Below are positions 30,026 to 62,827 of a stretch of DNA of 64,000 bases, one piece after another. This DNA comes from Xestospongia bergquistia (Eukaryota; Porifera; Demospongiae; Haplosclerida; Petrosiidae): NCBI GenBank assembly GCA_963965975.1, contig OZ014418.1, positions 6,274,775-6,338,774 of the forward strand, given 5' to 3'. How positions within the stretch are numbered: the stretch's first letter is position 1; every line of letters starts with the position of its first letter. The notes beneath the pieces were generated by a model. It made no database searches. It was not told the DNA's origin and saw nothing but the letters and a program-made list of their open reading frames with translations. The position numbers were made by a program, and so were the translations under genes.

Positions 30026-49354
<19,329 letters not shown>

Positions 49355-49781: not shown

Positions 49782-52700
49782 ATGATAGATATAAGTCAAT
49801 GGAGAACTAGTATAGGCCTATGGTATCATAGTACACAAAGAACCAACACAGATGGAGGATTACTGTTGTTAGGAAGATCAGGAGATGTGGATGATGGCTA
49901 CCTTGCCACATTATCTTTAATATTGTTTATTTCATTACTCCTTATTTTAGCTGGTGATATTGAACTCAATCCTGGACCTACAGGTATAATACTTGTATTA
50001 AAACATGACTATATTTATGTCCCTGCTATTTATTTCAATAGAATTGACACCTACCAATGCTGTACAATTTCTCGTTGATAATGGCTTTAATATTAAAGAT
50101 AAATGGATTGAACTAATTACTTTGCTACGTGTCTCACTGGAGGAGAGGGAAAGACTAGAGACAATGGCCAGCAGGGATCAAGATTTTCATGAAGTTTTAA
50201 AGGAAGGTTTACAATGGTGGATTACAAACAGTGCTGATCCCTCTTGGAAAGAACTCATCTCAGCTGTTGAGAACTGTGGGGATAAGGATGTAGCTACTAA
50301 CATGAGAAAACAGATAGAAATTAAAGAAGAAGGTCTGTGTTCTATGTAATGTAAGGTAATTCTAGCACTTTTAACAATAGCCCAACCTCTAAACCTCAAA
50401 CCCTAGAACTGCATTCTTTTTATAATCAAGATATCTTATAAGAATAACCACATTGTTTACTTTGTGCATATATAATCCAAACTTTCCTACAGGAGAGTAC
50501 CTGGTAGGTATGTATACACCCACAAGCACATACTTAAAAATCTATGCTAGAATCTAGTGAACATTTCAACCTTTTTAGCTTGAACCTTAATTGTGTCTAG
50601 TGTTTATTATGATGGACATTAAAATTAGTACATGTAATTAATAATAGACTTAATTTAGCTGACATAAGTTTGTATTAGGACATGCTCAGCATTGGTAGAG
50701 AATTAATAATTATACTATTTTATGAAATCTGATCTCATGGTCATAAGATATTATTGTGAAATTCAAACTGTATTGTTACAATAAACTACTCTGTCTTTAT
50801 AGCACTGTTACCAGAAGATATTCTCAAAGAAATTCAAGGAATTATTACATGGCCTCAACTTGGTCTAGTCCTTAACATTGAGAAGGAAGTGATTGAACGA
50901 ACAGCTCAGCTGTTTGGAGGAGATGAGGAAAGAGCTCTTCAGCATGTTGTGACCAACTGGTTGGATAATGATCCTGATGCATCTTGGGAAAAGTTAGCAA
51001 AGGCTGTGATGCGGATACCAATGTTACGACAAAAAGGAGCTCAACTTTATAGCAAATATGTGTCCAAAGGTTATATACAATTTACAATAACTTTAATATA
51101 GTGATATATTATAACAAGAATGCTTCAAATAGGACTTGTTATATCATTTTTATACAATATAATATTCTTTTAGATCTCACAGCAGATGCTGTATGTAAAG
51201 AACTAGAGGATTTGGTACAGGACTGGTTCCAACTAGGATACACATTTCTTTGTAATTCTCAACGTGTTCGAGAAGCAGGAAGAGGTGACTCCAATGAAGA
51301 AAAGCGAAAAGATGTCATAGGATATTGGTTAAAATCTGATCCTATTGCCAGCTGGGAATTAGTTGCTAGAAGGATTGAAGATTGCTTTCCACAACATGAG
51401 GCATTAGCTGAAGAAATACGACAGAAGCATCTTCCTAAAGTTGACACTACACCATTAATAAGGCCACCAACACCAGGTAACACCAATCATTGTAATACAG
51501 TTTTTTATCTGTCTATTCCCCTCAAATGCTATAGAACCTGAGACTGAACTATCTATAAAAACAGCTTTTAAAGCAACTCAAGGTGTTGATGATTGGTATG
51601 CCCTGGGTTGGTTCCTTAAGTTAAAGCAAGAGGAGCTTATAGATATTGAAGAAGAGCACACTAGACCTGACCAATGTCGTAATGCAGTCCTTAAATTATG
51701 GCTAGAGAAACATCCAATTAGTGCAGAATGGGTAGACCTGGCTAATGCACTTCGCTGCATGCCACAGCATGTTGGAAAGTCAGAAACAATACAAACCAAA
51801 TATTGTAAGTATTTTATAATCAATATAATTGTTTATTAGCGTTAACAACTTTTACACTATTGTGATACAGGTGAAGCCGTTTTAGAAAAACCGGATCTAA
51901 CTGGCCCAAGTAAATAAAATAACATAATGCACCCCACATTACTGTTTAATGAATGCGCAAAGATAATAACTTTCAATATGCTTATTTTTTGAATGTTAGA
52001 ATCTGAAGAGAAAGAACAAGAGATAAAGTCATTGAATGAAAAAATCAATTCATTGACTCAAACATATGAAACTAAGATATCTGAATTGAAAGAGAGTACA
52101 TCTGACTTGGAAGGAAGTAAGAAAGGATTTTGTTAATATGTAGAGATAGATCATATATATATATATATATTGAATGTTAGAATTTGAAGAGAAAGAACAA
52201 GAGATAAAGTCATTGAATGAAAAAATCAATTCATTGACTCAAACATATGAAACCAAGATATCTGAATTGAAAGAGAGTACATCTGAATTAGAAGGAAGTA
52301 AGAAAGGATTTTGTTAATATGTAGAGATAGATCATATATATATATATATATATTGAATGTTAGAATTTGAAGAGAAAGAACAAGAGATAAAGTCATTGAA
52401 TGAAAAAATCAATTCATTGACTCAAACATATGAAACCAAGATATCTGAATTGAAAGAGAGTACATCTGAATTAGAAGGAAGTAAGAAAGGATTTTGTTAA
52501 TATGTGGAGATAGATCATATAGATTTAAGAGAAGCAACAGAGAAAGCTGATATGCAGTTAAAAATGTCATCTGTTAAAACAGCTGAGATTGAAAACCTAC
52601 AAAAGGAATTGTTAAATTGTAAAGAAGAACTGCAAAGGTCTACTATGACAAGGCATAGTCCTTCACGCACCGAGACATCGCCAGTCCAGTTAGGTTAGTT

Positions 52701-55700
52701 ACACTACTAACTCAGATTCTTTTAAATATAACTGATCTTGTCATCAAATAAAATTGACGTAATTATAAAAATTATTGTAATAATCTGGACAGACAATTGT
52801 ATGTACTCGTGTATAATATTTACTTAGAGAATGACTTTCCTGATGGTATACATAAAACCTAAATATCTTTTTTATATATATTTGATATTGATACCAATAG
52901 ATTCTTTTTCAAATTTAGAACTACCTTTACTTGAGGAGTTAATTAAAAATGATGTATCTGTTCAGTTTGACTATCTTATTCCAGTCAATGGTACTAACAT
53001 ATAATTAATAAATGAACCATCATTAACTGATTATCTCAGATACTCTTCATGGTGTGCAAGTAGGAGGCAAGAAATTATTCCTAATTCAAGGAGACTCTCC
53101 TCAATATTTTAACTGGGATGGATATGGTCTAAGGATTAATGTTCCTGAAGGAACTGTATCTTCAACAGAGACCTGTGAGATAGTAGTTACAGCACTGATT
53201 GGTGGACAGTTTACATTTCCTAAAGGAAGTGAGCTAGTCAGTGCTGTATATGGTGTCTCTATTGCTAGTGAGATCCAGCAGCCACTGACACTTGAAATAC
53301 AACATTGTGTCTCTCTTAAAACAAGTGAACAATCTTCCTACATGAGATTTGCCAAAGCTAGTTCAAAACAGTTGCCTCTACCTTACCAGTTTCATTTGTT
53401 AGAAGGAGGTGTTTTCTCTCTTGATACCCGTTATGGAGCAATTTCTCTTACCAAGTTCTGTTTTGTTTGTGTACTCCTTGTTTATCCCACAGATTGGATT
53501 AACATAAATTCTCCTACTAGTAGTACCACTAGTGAAAGTGATTCAATTGAGATGTCTTCTTCACCTATTGATGATCAAAATAGTACTGAATTGCCAAAGA
53601 TTGATACTGAAACTGAGTTAGAATCAATACAACCGGCTGTTTTGCCTAATGAAGACTCTTCCATAACATATATGGATAATGCTGGTGAGTGGTATTTTCT
53701 TTGTTGCCATTTATTAGTAGTATATTTGACATTTTGTCTTCATTAGAAACTGATCAACACTATTTTGCCAAAGTATTCTATAAAGATCAAGTAGGCAATA
53801 ACTATGAGATGGAACTGATAGTTGTCAGAGACCTTGATTTCCTCAAGCAGGTATAATGAATATATATCATTCTATTATATACTGTACTGTTACTATATTC
53901 TATTAGTGTATTGAAACTCAACAAGATCTCCGTCAAGCTGAAAGTGGACAACAAATTCGTTTTCGTTTTAAGAAAGACATCAAAAGTGGTGGTTTTATTG
54001 AACTGGTATTTAAAGAGACAACTATTAAAGGATGGCATATACTACCTCAATTATTACCTTGTCAGGTAAGTACTTTTCAATCAGGGCAGTATTGATATAA
54101 TATTTGACAATTTTTTACTTATAGATTTTGAAGAAAGATGTAGATGACTTTGGTAACAAAGAAAATATCAAACCACCTTCATGTATTGTGTTAATTCATG
54201 CCAGTGAAAACAGTACTGATCTGGATGTGCTATACTATCCTGTACAACTCATTGGTATTGAGCCGTCTAATAGGACAATTTTTATTACCAGATATGCCAA
54301 GAAAATAGGTAGACACTTAATTGATATTCATTTAATGGTCAGTAACTTGTTCTCTTTTCTTAGAAGGTCAATTTGCACGAAAGCGGCCATCCCAATCTCT
54401 AGAGGAAATTTCAGTTCCAACAAAGAGACAGCATCTATTATCCTCAAGTAATAATTAGCATCAGATAAAGCTAATGATTTTCTCCTACATAGGTAGTGAA
54501 ATTCTGTCACCTATTAGTGAAGATAGTCCTGGAGGTATATCGATTAAGTAAATTTATTTATATACAACTTTTCTTTCACTATACATTTTAATGACATGAT
54601 ATGATAGCTTTAATTTTATTTTTACTTTTAGGTAGTGGTATAGTGTCATCAAATAATGCTGAGGTTCTTAGAAAGAGATCATCTACTAGTTCTTTAGGAT
54701 CATCATCACAAGGTGACTATTGGTCTACAATAAGAAAAAGCATCCTAGCAAGATATTTACCTTGCCTATCTATTCATATTTTGTCTACCAGGAAGAAATG
54801 ATGGGAAGGGTGAATAGTACAAAACTCCCATGTGATTGATAAAAATATAAGGTAGAAGTCTGGAAACTAGGCCACAATAAGTAGGCACATGACTTACCAG
54901 TATAATGACACAAACATCCATATGATAAATAGATCCTCTTATAGGATAGCAAAGACAGACAGGTCTTTTAATCAAGAAGAAGCATGACAATAAGTGAGGT
55001 TTTATCAAGATCACTTGGATGGCATTCACATACAAGCCTCACCCACAATTGTAATATTAACATTTATAAGTAATTGTAGTAATACAACTTCCTAGAGCTC
55101 TTTCTAACTTTTCAATTAATCACATGGGAGTTTCACGCTCCTTCCTTCTTCCTGCCTTTTCTTATTATATACTCTTGTTCCTACTTAGAACAGTTCACAT
55201 TTTACTTTACTTACATTCTCCTTGTTATAACTTTGATTTTACATTAAGCAAATTCTTTAGTGTTTAAGAATTTACTTGAACATAGAATTTAAGGTTGGCC
55301 TTAGCTAAGTAACAAGCTAATTGCTGTTGGTATCAGAAATCTAGTGGCTAGTGGTATTCTAACTATGCTTATAATTATATCTCATATTAAGGTACATAGC
55401 CAGACACCTCCACAAGTATATGTAATGCATAGTAATTGTCCAGCATGGTTATTACATTTCTTTTCAGATAACATTTCTTTTCAGATAATGTTAATATTTC
55501 CAAGCTGAGACAAGCTATCCACAAAGTCCTCACTAGTAACTATTCTTCATTACGTGATATAAGTAGAAATTGTTTAGAGGCATTAGCTAGTGAAATGTAT
55601 ACAGCTGGTCTCATTAACATAGAAGTCCAAAGGTCACCTTCATTTGATGGTATCATTAATGAATTTAAGTCGGGAATGGGATTCTTCAGAAGACCCTCTG

Positions 55701-55846
55701 AACTAGAGAACCACTGTATCAAGTTTCTAACAGTATTTGCTAAACTAGGAGGTAGTTTTACTATAGCTGGTAATGCTATTAAAGAGGACTGGATTGAAGT
55801 GGGTAAAACTGAGTGTGGACTAGAACTACGATTAATAATAGATTAA
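49782..55846 (+). CDS. 2A-leader, four Death-like domains, coiled coil, ZU5 protein
   Basis: Nineteen exons join in phase to 1,208 aa: 49782-49983, 50042-50332, 50803-51069, 51174-51476, 51535-51804, 51871-51909, 52000-52116, 52181-52297, 52364-52480, 52523-52693, 52919-52990, 53040-53684, 53747-53850, 53907-54065, 54125-54308, 54364-54447, 54493-54534, 54632-54712, 55485-55846. Residues 1-67 hold a hydrophobic segment ending in GDIELNPGP, a perfect 2A motif. Exons 2-5 each encode one Death-like helical domain (about residues 68-445), recognised by the recurring L..W......SW..L..A pattern. Exons 7-10 are coiled coil. Exon 12 is a ZU5 domain (about 656-800), followed by a beta-rich UPA-like region and a helical C-terminal domain (1089-1208). 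ZU5-Death combinations occur in UNC5, PIDD and ankyrins. A signalling or innate-immune role is inferred. Not a recognised named gene. Confidence 0.8.
49902..49979 (+). other. 2A (StopGo) ribosome-skipping sequence within an N-terminal hydrophobic leader
   Basis: The codons give a Leu/Ile-rich stretch (LATLSLILFISLLLILA) followed by GDIELNPGP. This satisfies the 2A consensus D(V/I)ExNPGP; the predicted skip is between Gly (49974-49976) and Pro (49977-49979). Known 2A signal-sequence leaders in sea urchin NLR proteins have the same design. Here it would release the leader and leave the Death/ZU5 protein starting with Pro in the cytosol, while unskipped product would carry the leader. Confidence 0.85.
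52000..52480 (+). repeat. Triplicated 117-bp coiled-coil exon
   Basis: Exons 52000-52116, 52181-52297 and 52364-52480 are almost identical, as are the introns between them (TA microsatellites at 52153-52171 and 52334-52353). Each exon is 39 codons with phase 1 at both ends, so copies can be added or lost without shifting frame. Confidence 0.93.
54789..55154. mobile_element. MITE-like element with imperfect terminal inverted repeats
   Basis: The left end (CAGGAAGAA, then AAACTCCCATGTGATT at 54822-54837) is inverted at the right end (AATCACATGGGAGTTT at 55118-55133, then TTCTTCCTG to 55154). The element is about 366 bp, non-coding, inside the last intron of the 2A/Death gene. No clear target-site duplication was seen, so the family is unassigned. 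Confidence 0.55.
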
Positions 55847-57224: not shown

Positions 57225-60200
57225 ATGGCTGTAATAAGTGAAGTTGTGAGTAGGACTACATTTGGTGGATGTACTCTTGATGATCTACATAGAGGATCTA
57301 AGAATTATGTATGTGATGCCAGTTGCTTAGTGAACTTAGTGGGTAAAGATACCAATGAAGCAAAGGAAGGATTGATAAACAAAATGGATGAACTTTTTCA
57401 AGAGTTAGAACTACAGACTGAACGTAGAGTAAAGAAGTATTATATTGGAAAGACATTCATTAAACCTCGAAGACGTCCAAACTACAGAAAATTTTTTATG
57501 AAGTTTGATCCAATGGACCCATATACTTGGAAAAAGAATGGTATCAGTTCAAGATGGGGTTGTCATAAAAACACGGAGTATGGTAGAGATGGGTTAGTGG
57601 TATTGGCAGCTGTAACTAAAGATGCAGTACCACAACAATATCGTGATAAAGGCCATCAAGAACAATATGCTGTAGCATTAGAACAAATGTTACTTCATCA
57701 TTACAAATTAGAAATAGGAGATCAACGATTGTATAATGATACCTTCACTTCTGCAGGACCTGATGGAGGAAAATCAATAGCTTATGCTATTTATGTCGCC
57801 TTTACTTTAGAGGAACTGACCAAAGATGATTTTGAAAATAGCCATATGTCCTCAAAAATAAGCCAACCAGTTGAGGGACAAACTACTTCTGATTTAAATG
57901 ATACTTTCTCATCTCAGTTAGACGTTCATGCACAAGAGACATGGCTACATGTACCAGTAGCTCTAAATAGTTCTGCTTCATCAGAATCATCACTGCCAAG
58001 CCAGGGAATCAAAGAACGAAGTAGTTCAAGTGATAGTGATGCATTTGTGATCAGTCTTCCTCAATTAGACATGGACAAAGTGACAGGTCACCAAGCAACG
58101 ATCTCAAGGTTTCCAGTCCCATTAGGTTAGTTACATTATTAGTTTTAACCCATAAAATTTTTAATAACAAAATTAACAAATTCAACTCTATTGTGATACA
58201 GGTGAAACAGGTTCAGAGAAACCAGATCACACTGCAACTGACTCAATTACAAGTAAATAAAATAATGATAAGTTAGATTATATGCGTATCAAATTACTGT
58301 TTGATGATAATGTTTAAAGACAACACTAGAAACAAGAAGGATATGTTGATGCTTCAAGAAATTAAGTATGCATTTAAACCTTTATTCGCATGTCTACTAC
58401 ATGTTCCATAAAGTATTATCATATTTATTACTGACATGTGTTACCATTAGCTTACTTGGTATTCACTAACCAGTAATCAAATTTTATATCTTGTTATATG
58501 TTTTTAAAATCATTCTTTATTTGTTTTATAGCATTGGAGTTATTAAAAAAAGAGGAAGAAATTGACAATCTAAAACAAGGTTAGTAATATTTGTAGCTAT
58601 TGTAAGTTATTTCAGTCATGCTGTGGTCTATGATATGTAATTTTAGTAATATATATACTATATATATATATATGTTACAGTAGTATTGTGCATATATATA
58701 GGGATTTTGCGAAATCCCTGAAACTTTCAGGGAGTTTGTGAAATCACTTTTTCACTTATGGACTTCATAAAACCCTAAAACCTAAACCTTAACCTGAAGC
58801 TTAAAACTACTCAGTTTTTATTGTCTCAGCACTAAAATTCAACAAAATAATTGTAATTACTTGTGATTAATTGCCGAGCGCCTTAGCGCGAGGCAAATAA
58901 TTGTGCGTCGCATCTCGCAGATAGTTTGTATGTATGTATGTGTCACGCTTGAGAATGCTATTATTTCAGCACAACACGCTAACGTATGCTCACGTGCTTC
59001 AGTGTAACGCTTAGGAATGTTACTGCACTATCTCCACGACCTTTTGCTGCAATCTGAACTCGTAACTTGGAACTCTTATGGCTCTTTGTCCACAGCCCAA
59101 TCGCTTGCGTAATCTATGCGTTTTCACTTTCGCTTCCTTGCGTTATTATTTTTATCTGCATACAAAAATGTATGCAATTCACTGCGCGAGGCTCTACACT
59201 GCATATACGTATGTCTAGTTATTACATGTAACATGTGTTCAGTACCATAGTTTTTTCTCTTATTATAGAACAACAATTACTAGAGGAAGAATTAAAAATA
59301 AAGAAAAGAAAAATAATGGAGCTTGAAGACAGTAAGAAACAGACTATTTTTTATATATTTTCAGAACTATATATAGGTTTAAAAACAGCCACAAAAAAAG
59401 ATAAAATGCAGGAAAAAATGTTGTTTGAGATAGGAACTCTACGAAAAGAATTGTCAAGGTGCGAAGAGGAAAAGCTTGCTAATACTTTGTGATAAAAACT
59501 CTACAAAAGGAATTGTCAAGTTGTAAAGAGGAATTACTACAGTGCAAAACCAAACATAGTCCTGCTATGAAGCCTGTAGTCCAGTTAGGTTAGTTAAACA
59601 TTTGCTATAATATAACACCATGTACAATATATAATAGATATTTCCCAGTATCTCCCCAAACTGTAGGTAGTTCTTCAACCAATACAAGATAATTGGGAAC
59701 AGTTAGGAGTATCACTGGGTATAGATCAGTCTGTACTGTCATCAATAAAATCTACAACTGGAGACTCTACAGAGTATATGAGACAACTTCTAGAGAAATG
59801 GAGTATGAAGGGAGGACATTTACAAGATCTTGAGGAGGGACTAATATCTATTGGAAGGAAGGACTTGATCTCTGGTATGTTATTGAAGAGATAGGTGTAT
59901 ATATGTAGAATATTTACTAAGTACTTATTGAAAGTTGTAGATCAAGACTCATAACCTTTATACATGCTTTAACATTGACATTAACTGAGTAATTTCTAAT
60001 ATATATATATATAGGTTTGGTTGAGATGATGGAAGTATCTACTGATACATATGTCAAAGATGTACAGACATCAGAGAGTGAGTTAAATGATGATACTTAA
60101 TAGCTTATATTAGTTCATGAATATTATTGATCTTTTAATATTTGTTGCTGTTTAAGATAAATACTAATGTTGTTCCATGCAGCAACATACTTAGGGACAT

Positions 60201-62827
60201 TGAAAATTATTTGATTTAGTTATTGTCTTTTATTGAAAGCTGTCTGCTCTCTAAGCTAGTAATAACTAGAAAATCTCACTAACTTGTTTACCACCTTTAA
60301 TAGAAATGGTTTAGATTTGTATTTAGTGATTCACCTTGATTCTTGTTCTGCTTGGAATCTTCCATTAATCCCAAATTTGAAATAGAGGAAGACATGATAC
60401 TTTTATAAGTATTTTCTCTTGTTTTTAGAGTATAAAGTTTGTATCTATCATTTTACATGCTTCTATTTGACTCAAGGTCTTTTAATGCGTAAACGACCCA
60501 ACAAGTTTCTTGAGGATGTTCCGTCATCAAAAAGACAATCTATTACCTCCAGTGAGTTCATGTTTACACTATATGATGTTATATTTCATGTATTGATATT
60601 ATGTATATAGGCTTACCCCAAATGGTTGAAATGGAGGAAAGGTCCACTGATGTCATAGATATAGAAATGTCAGATGACAGTGAGTGAGATAAGTATAGTA
60701 CTGTTACTACTGTGTGAAGATGATACTTTACAGTGACTATTAGATTGATCGACTATAATATATAGCAACTTCTGCCATTTTAGAATTATCTGTGGTTAAA
60801 ATGGAGGGTGATATTAAGTCAATGGAGACATCACTAGTTAAAAAAGATGAATCTGTTCAGTTTGACTACCTTATCCCAATCAATGGTATATTTACAATAT
60901 TGTCTTGTTCATTAATGATAACCTTATAGATACACTTTGTGGTGTCCATGTAGCAGATAAGAAGTTATTCTTAATTCAAGGAAACTCTCCTCAATCTTTC
61001 AATTGGGATGAATATGGTCTAAGAATTAGTGTTCCTCAAGACACTTTATTTTCAACAGAGACCAGTGAGTTAGCAATGACTGCACTAGTTGGTGGACAGT
61101 TTGAATTACCAGTAGACACTGAACTAATCAGTGTTGTATATAGTATATCTGTCTCTAAACCACTACTTAAACCAGTCAAATTAGAGATCCAACACTGTGC
61201 ACATCTAATTACTGAAGATCATACTAGTTATCTAAGCTTTGCTACAGCTTCTATTGACCAACCAGTTCTTCCTTACCAGTTCAAGTTAGAGGAAGGAGGA
61301 GATTTCAGACCAGGAGATCAATATGGTAGCATCTCTCTATCACAGTTCTCTTTGAAGAGTATCATTAAATCGCTCAGTCGTTCATTCCGGAAACTACTGG
61401 GATATGACGATACATCATATGACAAAACAAATCTTGGTTGTCAGTTTAAGTCTGAATTACAAGAAAACAATATATCCACCACTGATTGTGATAAAGCAAT
61501 CATTGTGAATATATCAGAACTTTCTACTGTGAGTGAATTTCACATAACTGAAGGTAAATTGTATTTTATGTTGATATGCAGTATTTGTAATGTATAGATT
61601 ATTCACTGTAAGCCAACTCTGATATTGCAGCTAATGCTACAATTCCCTCATCAACTGTGTCTAATTTTACTTGTCAGGCACAACCTACTCTAACTCATTC
61701 TCTTGCTATACTTAATGAGCAGTTTTTAATAGCTAGTCCAGTTCAAAGTATACTGTATTGCTACCTGCTCATTATATCTGTTATTTGTTACTGTAGATCA
61801 GTTTCCTGTTAATAGTTCATCTCCTGATAACATGTATGTAGGTCAGGTAGTATATGAAGTTAAACATCATGATAATGAATGGTTAATGAGATTTATGGTT
61901 GCTAAACATCTCAATGCTCTACTCGAGGTAATTATGTTATTGGTTAATTAATAATTGACTATTCATTTATTTACTAGTACATTAAGACTTCTCTTCCAAG
62001 TAATGTTGAGATAGATAATCATATTTCTTTTACTTTCAAAGATGTTAATGGTTCTATTGAACTAGTTCTTGGAAAAGAACAAGAGCATCCATATGATGGA
62101 TGGAATATCGCCCACATAGTATCCCATCAAGAGTATGTTATTACTTTGTTATACTGTCATTTGATATAGTTTTATATTTACAGGTATCAAAACGTGATGT
62201 AGACAGGTTTGGTACTCAATCTCCTCCATTTTTTCCCTCTACACTTATAACAATATCTGTACATGACAGTTCAAGTACTGTTAGTGGCATAGACTATAGT
62301 GTACCATTGAAAGGAGTGGAAACAGATATTATGAAGATATGTATTGTCAGATCTCTCACTGGCTATACTGGTAAGAACTTTCATTTATTGTTTAAATTAA
62401 GTTTAATCCTTATTTAGATAGAGGCTCAGTAACGTCAGCTGGGGTTGATTTTCAATCCATTGGTAGGTATAAAATGTATACCACAATACAATTATAAATT
62501 TCATCTCTAGTTAATAATGATCCATCTGAAGTATTTCGAAAACAATTTGCAAAACTTTGTGATGCCATTGAAGCTAATCCTCTTCGTGTTGCTAATGGAC
62601 TCAATTCTGATGGACTGGTAACTCCAAGTATCAGGAAAGACATTAAAAGTATGAGTGGTACATCATATGATAAAGCTGATGCAATAGTTGAAGAGCTTCA
62701 AAGACAAATAGATGCTGACAGTAATCCAGTCCAATTTCTATTAAAGATTTCTAAGTTTCTTCAAAACCAAAAAGACAAGGTCCTCAAAGATATTGGTAAT
62801 GAAATAATGAACCAACTAGGTCAATAA
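57225..62827 (+). CDS. GIY-YIG-like, coiled coil, Death, ZU5, CARD-like protein
   Basis: Eighteen exons join in phase, about 1,093 aa: 57225-58125, 58202-58252, 58532-58579, 59269-59331, 59365-59458, 59521-59588, 59689-59874, 60015-60077, 60477-60551, 60611-60679, 60784-60885, 60930-61553, 61631-61747, 61797-61927, 61978-62118, 62184-62370, 62418-62462, 62511-62827. Exon 9 could start at 60429, adding 16 aa. The first exon holds YYIGKT (72-77), RWGCH (110-114), Glu153 in ALEQMLLHHY and Asn171, the spacing expected for a GIY-YIG nuclease-type fold. Then come coiled coil, a Death domain (about 409-470, WEQLGVSLGI...LLEKW), ZU5 (from 574), a beta-rich region and a CARD-like helical end (989-1093). 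It is a paralogue of its upstream neighbour from the linker exon onward. Function is not known; nucleic-acid sensing or effector signalling is an inference. The 62-nt intron at 59459-59520 and the acceptor at 59688 are the least certain splice sites. Confidence 0.72.
58870..59215. repeat. CpG-containing insert in an intron, possible mobile-element remnant
   Basis: Unlike the surrounding AT-rich intron, this stretch has many CG dinucleotides and nearby copies of GCGCGAGGC (58888 and 59182 regions). It has no ORF. Its composition suggests inserted repetitive DNA; the family is unknown. Confidence 0.4.

Follow-up and report, generated by a model that had tools for sequence, protein, structure and literature searches.

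The genome of the sponge Xestospongia bergquistia contains a leader module that is repeated about 130 times, and that stands at the head of NACHT, Death, Death-ankyrin and Death-ZU5 genes. Leaders of this class consist of the motif MI(D/N/G/E)xxQWRxxIGxW, a linker, a hydrophobic helix and a 2A (StopGo) core. The recurrence of such a leader, with its core kept, ahead of immune-type genes points to a selected host leader module, and we consider it likely that the module is a portable one on which ribosome skipping yields a cytosolic protein, while a minor, unskipped form is directed to the endoplasmic reticulum (ER). By analogy with a sea-urchin leader for which skipping has been assayed, the arrangement is best read as giving two products from one mRNA. 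The member of the class from which we started lies in the window, a 64,000-nucleotide stretch of contig OZ014418.1 (positions 6,274,775 to 6,338,774, forward strand), and bare coordinates below refer to this window.

Exon 1 of the window gene (49782..49983, plus strand) is an open frame that holds the whole leader, from MIDISQWR, the start common to the leader family, to GDIELNPGP-T-, and it is followed by a phase-1 GT donor after 49983. Its layout can be written MIDISQWRTSIGLWYHSTQRTNTDGGLLLLGRSGDVDDGY-helix-GDIELNPG/P. The N-terminal motif MIxxxQWRxxIGxW (49782..49823, plus strand) is picked out by a QWRxxIGxW pattern search and by constraint on residues 9–14, and 40 residues precede the helix. 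The helix itself (49902..49952, plus strand), called from hydrophobicity alone, is a 17-mer with a mean Kyte-Doolittle value of 2.82 that ends eight residues before the Gly-Pro bond. Directly behind it the 2A core GDIELNPGP (49953..49979, plus strand) closes the exon, as the sequence-only reading had proposed; DIELNPGP (49956–49979) conforms to the StopGo consensus (D/G/C/N)(V/I)ExNPGP, and the only ExNPGP frame within the window is the one at 49956. The predicted skip site falls between 49976 and 49977, after Gly65 and before Pro66. That reading had also taken the leader to be 26 residues long, the translation of 49902–49979 on the plus strand (LATLSLILFISLLLILAGDIELNPGP); the ATG at 49782 lies upstream of this segment and carries the family start, which lengthens the leader to 66 residues. 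An N-terminal position and a hydrophobic segment, as in the SpNLR2A type of leader, are thus both present (ATG at 49782, helix at 49902–49952). There is no stop codon between core and donor, and the splice from 49983 to 50042 that had been proposed holds as a predicted GT-AG intron (intron 1, 49984..50041, plus strand, phase 1) that keeps the frame.

We searched the window's own assembly (146,460,797 bases, 21 contigs) for further copies; because these searches score the best candidates, the counts are lower bounds. The pattern GDIExNPGP gave 92 genome matches and D(I/V)ExNPGP gave 159, against none for either pattern reversed, and the version with a GTN (Val) codon gave 66 sites. Our working set of 160 2A places comprises the 92, the 66 and two from the D(I/V)ExNPGP search; one further site was counted and lies outside this set. 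A 65-residue leader query from which the core had been removed matched 149 places, and a perfect core lies downstream on the same strand in 132 of them (130 within 12 nt, the remaining two at 83 and 126 nt), the reading frame of these pairs having been checked in the loci that were fetched. Restricted to stop-free leader matches, the figure is 129 of 141. That the motif is kept in copies found without using the motif supports the earlier suggestion that the 2A exon belongs to a host gene.

The 17 leader matches that lack a perfect core, read in 16 stretches, are mostly damaged. Two (L063, L068) are open frames with the variant GGVELNPGP, which falls inside the expanded motif given in PMC12846837, and two (L060, L061) offer no readable frame. 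The other 13 are broken or mutated: L055 reads GDVELKPGP and is followed by an apparently broken exon, L064 reads GDAKLNHGP and contains stops, in L057 and L058 the frame is lost at the core, and nine matches are truncated or broken by stops (L056, L059, two in L062, L065, L066, L067, L069 and L070). Searched as a DNA pattern, QWRxxIGxW has 118 sites in the genome and none in the control; among the 100 sites listed, 96 have a 2A site 60–330 nt downstream, and the four that have none lie in L055, L058, L059 and L065. Conversely, 28 of the 160 2A sites were untouched by a leader match, two of which (L008, L029) are leaders by sequence. Leaders are clustered, 104 of the 132 having another within 50 kb.

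Sequence constraint was measured on 34 leaders, obtained from 46 distinct 2A frames by leaving out 13 and adding the window leader, the filter being M(I/V)(D/N/E/G)x(x)(Q/N)(W/L)R in the same frame. Those left out are five frames of a second, PHD-finger class described below (L003, L016, L017, L022, L047), three others (L006, L009 on the plus strand, and L048) and five that are leader-like yet truncated or divergent (L002, L021, L030, L031 and the second site of L046); L030 and L031 are open frames with helix and core that lack the QWR start. Uncorrected pN/pS, with synonymous change among the 34 near saturation, comes to 0.87 in the linker, as against 0.39 in residues 9–14, 0.44 in the helix and 0.11 in the core, the last value being biased downwards because the rows were found by the 2A pattern. 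The value for residues 1–8 (0.24) is not independent evidence, since the rows were filtered on those eight residues. At positions outside the filter, I11 is kept in 32, G12 in 33 and W14 in all 34 leaders. From such sequence evidence the core appears to be kept by selection. Synonymous variation is itself lower in the core, with a pS of 0.30 versus 0.51–0.59 in the rest of the exon, and particular codons recur there (for example, CTC in 25 and GAA in all 34 leaders).

Placement is as regular as sequence. In all 34 leaders the most hydrophobic 17-mer ends 5–12 residues before the Gly-Pro bond, and in 31 of them a phase-1 GT follows one or two codons beyond the core. Core and Death exon are at most 100 nt apart in 34 of 42 plus-strand cases. 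With a common donor phase and a short gap to the next exon, the leader is a one-exon unit whose phase allows it to be joined to many genes. Net charge ahead of the helix ranges from −3 to +5 among the 34 and so gives no consistent sign of membrane orientation.

The genes behind the leaders are largely of innate-immune type. A 2A site lies on the same strand within 4.5 kb upstream of 48 of 95 NACHT exons, within 1.5 kb upstream of 71 of 77 Death exons (those at least 50% identical to window exon 2) and within 9 kb upstream of 12 of the 150 ZU5-like exons listed, whereas the opposite-strand control gave zero for each of the three. Seen from the leaders, 100 of the 132 sites have one or more of four domain exons downstream, the four including a further type of Death exon, and 44 have a NACHT exon within 5 kb; the other 32 have none of the four within the limits used. 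Pfam searches on single frames found NACHT in L005, L041, L049, L050 and L054, and long ankyrin arrays in L042. The window gene had been put forward as a single new host architecture; it is instead one of about 130 leader-bearing cases, and the 44 with NACHT belong to a class known in sea urchin. These gene classes can also do without 2A, since 2A is absent within 4.5 kb of 47 of the 95 NACHT exons and within 9 kb of 138 of the 150 ZU5-like exons listed. Twenty-nine of those 47 NACHT exons are on contig C2, where they form an array at 8.83–9.15 Mb; with 4.5 kb upstream free of 2A sites, these exons contrast naturally with the NACHT exons that do have a leader.

Downstream of the leader, the window gene can be modelled in frame over 16 exons (all plus strand): the leader, four Death-like exons, a coiled coil, a ZU5-like exon and further exons. 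The claim of four Death-like domains held in part. Exon 2 (50042..50332) is just over the Pfam Death cut-off (22.7 versus 22.6 bits) and exon 5 (51535..51804) just under it (22.3 bits), whereas exons 3 (50803..51069) and 4 (51174..51476) have no Pfam match; they resemble one another (27.5% identity over 69 residues), and exon 4 also resembles the exon-5-type domain of L077 and L079 (30% over 74). Taken as a whole, the window protein scores 34.6 bits for Pfam Death, over the curated cut-off. The ZU5 assignment is likewise divided: the window exon (53040..53684) reaches 17.8 of the 21 bits required by Pfam, but its exon family, with at least 150 matches (the best 150 of 313 candidates), overlaps places where ZU5 exceeds the cut-off (for example, C1:6115617, C3:3476992 and C5:6766670). 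In a search against solved structures the ZU5-like exon matched nothing, and exon 2 gave two weak matches, to a histidinol dehydrogenase.

The rest of the model is made up of a short exon 6 without a domain (51871..51909), coiled-coil exons (52000..52693) of which three are tandem copies, a short exon 11 without a domain (52919..52990) and three more exons without an assigned domain (53747..54308); exons 6 and 11 and these last three are bounded by in-frame GT-AG junctions. The tandem coiled-coil copies, at 52000–52480, are near-identical, introns included. The probable last exon (55472..55846), an open reading frame, encodes a domain common to other leader genes, with tblastn matches in L039 and L040 and a blastp cluster that takes in L004, L025, L026, L039, L040, L042, L052 and L053; it is probably joined to the gene via short phase-1 exons at about 54.36–54.70 kb, which were read by eye. 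No NACHT was found in the window gene among the 25 Pfam families listed out of 38, and no endonuclease or reverse transcriptase among the Pfam families listed.

Two neighbours of this gene may be described here. At 59232–62827 lies a second Death/coiled-coil/ZU5 gene, without a 2A leader in the window, whose ZU5-like exon (60932–61366) is 54% identical to that of the first and whose Death match is interrupted by an in-frame TAG. On the other side, about 33500–49354 encodes a very large protein, by eye usherin-like, in which laminin-EGF-like, laminin-G-like and fibronectin-III-like regions occur and a transmembrane segment comes late; some 430 bases separate its end from the 2A gene.

How would such a leader work? 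The length of the ribosome exit tunnel is such that a helix ending 5–12 residues before the bond should still sit inside the tunnel when skipping takes place, in which case skipping would decide targeting ahead of any recognition of the helix. In most passages the ribosome would release the leader of the window gene at Gly65, with the helix still inside the tunnel, and would go on to make a leader-free cytosolic protein from Pro66. In the remaining passages the bond would form, the helix would emerge and the protein would be directed to the ER. Forty residues ahead of the helix is long for a cleaved signal peptide, which makes a signal-anchor likelier, and the unskipped form may therefore be membrane-anchored rather than secreted. 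For the window gene we infer transcription, skipping and targeting alike.

Not all 2A sites in this genome belong to the leader class. In a second class the core is followed by a PHD finger, found by Pfam in L022 and L047 and by similarity in L003, L016 and L017, and this class may be mobile; L006 and L048 fall in neither class. The PHD-class loci (L003, L016–L018, L022, L047) lie on C1 at 10.9–11.1 and 20.4 Mb and on C4 at 8.60–8.91 Mb, and the latter stretch holds ten 2A sites with near-identical core codons, one of which (L047) was read. Among bacterial and archaeal contigs, three stretches matched in a search for relatives and one was confirmed, L083, which is not a leader: the contig concerned, LFLC01000029.1, binned as Nitrosopumilus, begins (86–604 of L083) with a GDIEINPGP frame followed by what by eye is an endonuclease-like protein, and it has the look of a mobile element of animal origin that was placed in an archaeal bin. 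In viral contigs 38 stretches matched a pattern and none was confirmed.

Many animal 2A sequences belong to non-LTR retrotransposons, and exon 1 might accordingly be part of such an element. In 2A sequences of that kind the core follows a hydrophobic stretch at an N-terminus, much as here. The presence of a PHD-finger class (L022, L047) that may be mobile, and of a 2A sequence joined to an endonuclease-like frame in L083, lends this reading some substance, yet, unlike the retrotransposon kind, the leader-class frames that were scanned yielded neither a PHD finger nor an endonuclease or reverse-transcriptase family. None of the 160 2A sites has a reverse-transcriptase match within 8 kb downstream among the best 150 of 1023 candidates (there is one on the opposite strand), and the leader class has none within 8 kb among the same matches, although this test is weak because the PHD-class sites likewise give zero. 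More telling are the NACHT, Death or ZU5-like exons downstream of 100 of the 132 leader sites on the same strand, and the clustering of 104 of the 132 within 50 kb of a neighbour, as in tandem gene arrays. Mainly because of the immune-type exons after the leaders we rejected a retrotransposon identity for exon 1, which we now regard as very improbable indeed. We hold it to be quite improbable, too, that exon 1 stands as a short gene of its own, or as an alternative first exon, and is seldom joined to the Death exon: the short gap between core and Death exon (34 of 42), the phase-1 GT behind the core (31 of 34) and the stop-free passage to the donor in the window all argue for the join.

A different kind of alternative accepts the exon as the gene's own and disputes what it does. 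The motif could be simply a membrane anchor or signal peptide, with skipping weak or absent and NPGP as inherited baggage, and the dependence of 2A activity on upstream context leaves some room for this; but 132 of the 149 copies retrieved with a core-free query retain a perfect core, and the variable linker provides an example, within the same exon, of what weakly constrained sequence looks like, which makes the proposal improbable. At the other extreme, skipping may be near complete, and the released 65-residue QWRxxIGxW membrane microprotein may be the point of the arrangement, made one to one with a cytosolic receptor that starts at Pro; the unskipped fraction could be negligible, and the unskipped form would then be noise. 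The constraint on residues 9–14 (pN/pS of 0.39 versus 0.87 in the linker) fits this well, as does the number of QWRxxIGxW sites (118), about as many as there are leaders, since such a motif would be superfluous for a mere targeting helix. The same constraint is equally explained, however, by targeting or by recognition in the ribosome tunnel or by SRP, and we look on the microprotein reading as unlikely, if a serious candidate. We thus retain the portable host leader with mostly skipped, cytosolic output as the reading that best accounts for the data.

The closest known case is the sea-urchin leader SpNLR2A (Roulston et al., 2016; PMC4981915). According to that paper, a 26-residue N-terminal 2A sequence of a sea-urchin NLR skips about 80% of the time in vitro, the skipped product is cytosolic, and a non-skipping mutant goes mainly to the Golgi. 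The sponge leaders share with it an N-terminal hydrophobic 2A on immune receptors, and the dual cytosolic and exocytic output shown there is the one that we predict here. They differ in length (26 residues versus 65–78, with 66 in the window gene), in having a conserved MIxxxQWRxxIGxW start and an exon of their own, and in their hosts, SpNLR2A being reported on NLRs whereas here Death-ZU5 and Death-ankyrin genes are also included. The principle is already known from sea-urchin NLRs; it is extended here to a longer leader and to Death, ZU5 and ankyrin hosts.

The core and its context also resemble StopGo sequences of other origin. PMC12846837 describes Leu-rich motifs that close with (A/S/C)G ahead of Asp as a natural StopGo class, with a motif-6 example that is active in vitro. 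By eye, the upstream context of the window core (LLILAGDIELNPGP) is Leu-rich with AG before Asp, and the leaders resemble L-rich classes 2 and 6, as set out there, in their Leu-rich stretch, (A/S/C)G and D(V/I)ExNPGP. In that account, by contrast, classes 2 and 6 are defined on viral sequences, while the leaders are in host genes, and Ser is preferred at the x position of the core, where the leaders have Leu. The same source describes StopGo in cellular genes as only rare.

In PMC12909245, Death-NACHT and NACHT-ZU5/Ank genes are described in sponges and other early animals, with expanded domain sets similar to those found here, and transmembrane domains are noted in sponge NLRs, first reported in Amphimedon. 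The terms '2A-like' and 'signal peptide' are absent from the main text of that paper, and the leader helix could explain the transmembrane calls. Matches to '2A-like' in PMC5890393 are a gene name. Among the papers listed in the literature searches, which did not cover the survey of eukaryotic and viral 2A sequences by Rao et al. (2025), none deals with 2A leaders in sponge host genes, and priority is uncertain.

What sets the sponge case apart is leader length, the conserved start, the separate exon, the use on Death-ZU5 and Death-ankyrin genes, and scale: within one genome a 2A leader heads about 100 host immune-type genes, though StopGo has been described as rare in cellular genes. Because the leader is found on so many immune genes, dual output would be a common property of part of the NLR and Death-adaptor repertoire, and the varied sequences of the leaders offer a natural series in which the effect of skipping on protein location could be measured. 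The broadest reading, which we put forward as rather doubtful, is that one mobile first exon has placed some 130 genes, of which no fewer than 100 are innate-immune in type and varied in architecture, under a single translational switch, each mRNA giving a common membrane microprotein, a receptor in the cytosol and, as a minor product, a receptor anchored in the membrane. If this were true, the whole repertoire would change location at once under global control of StopGo efficiency.
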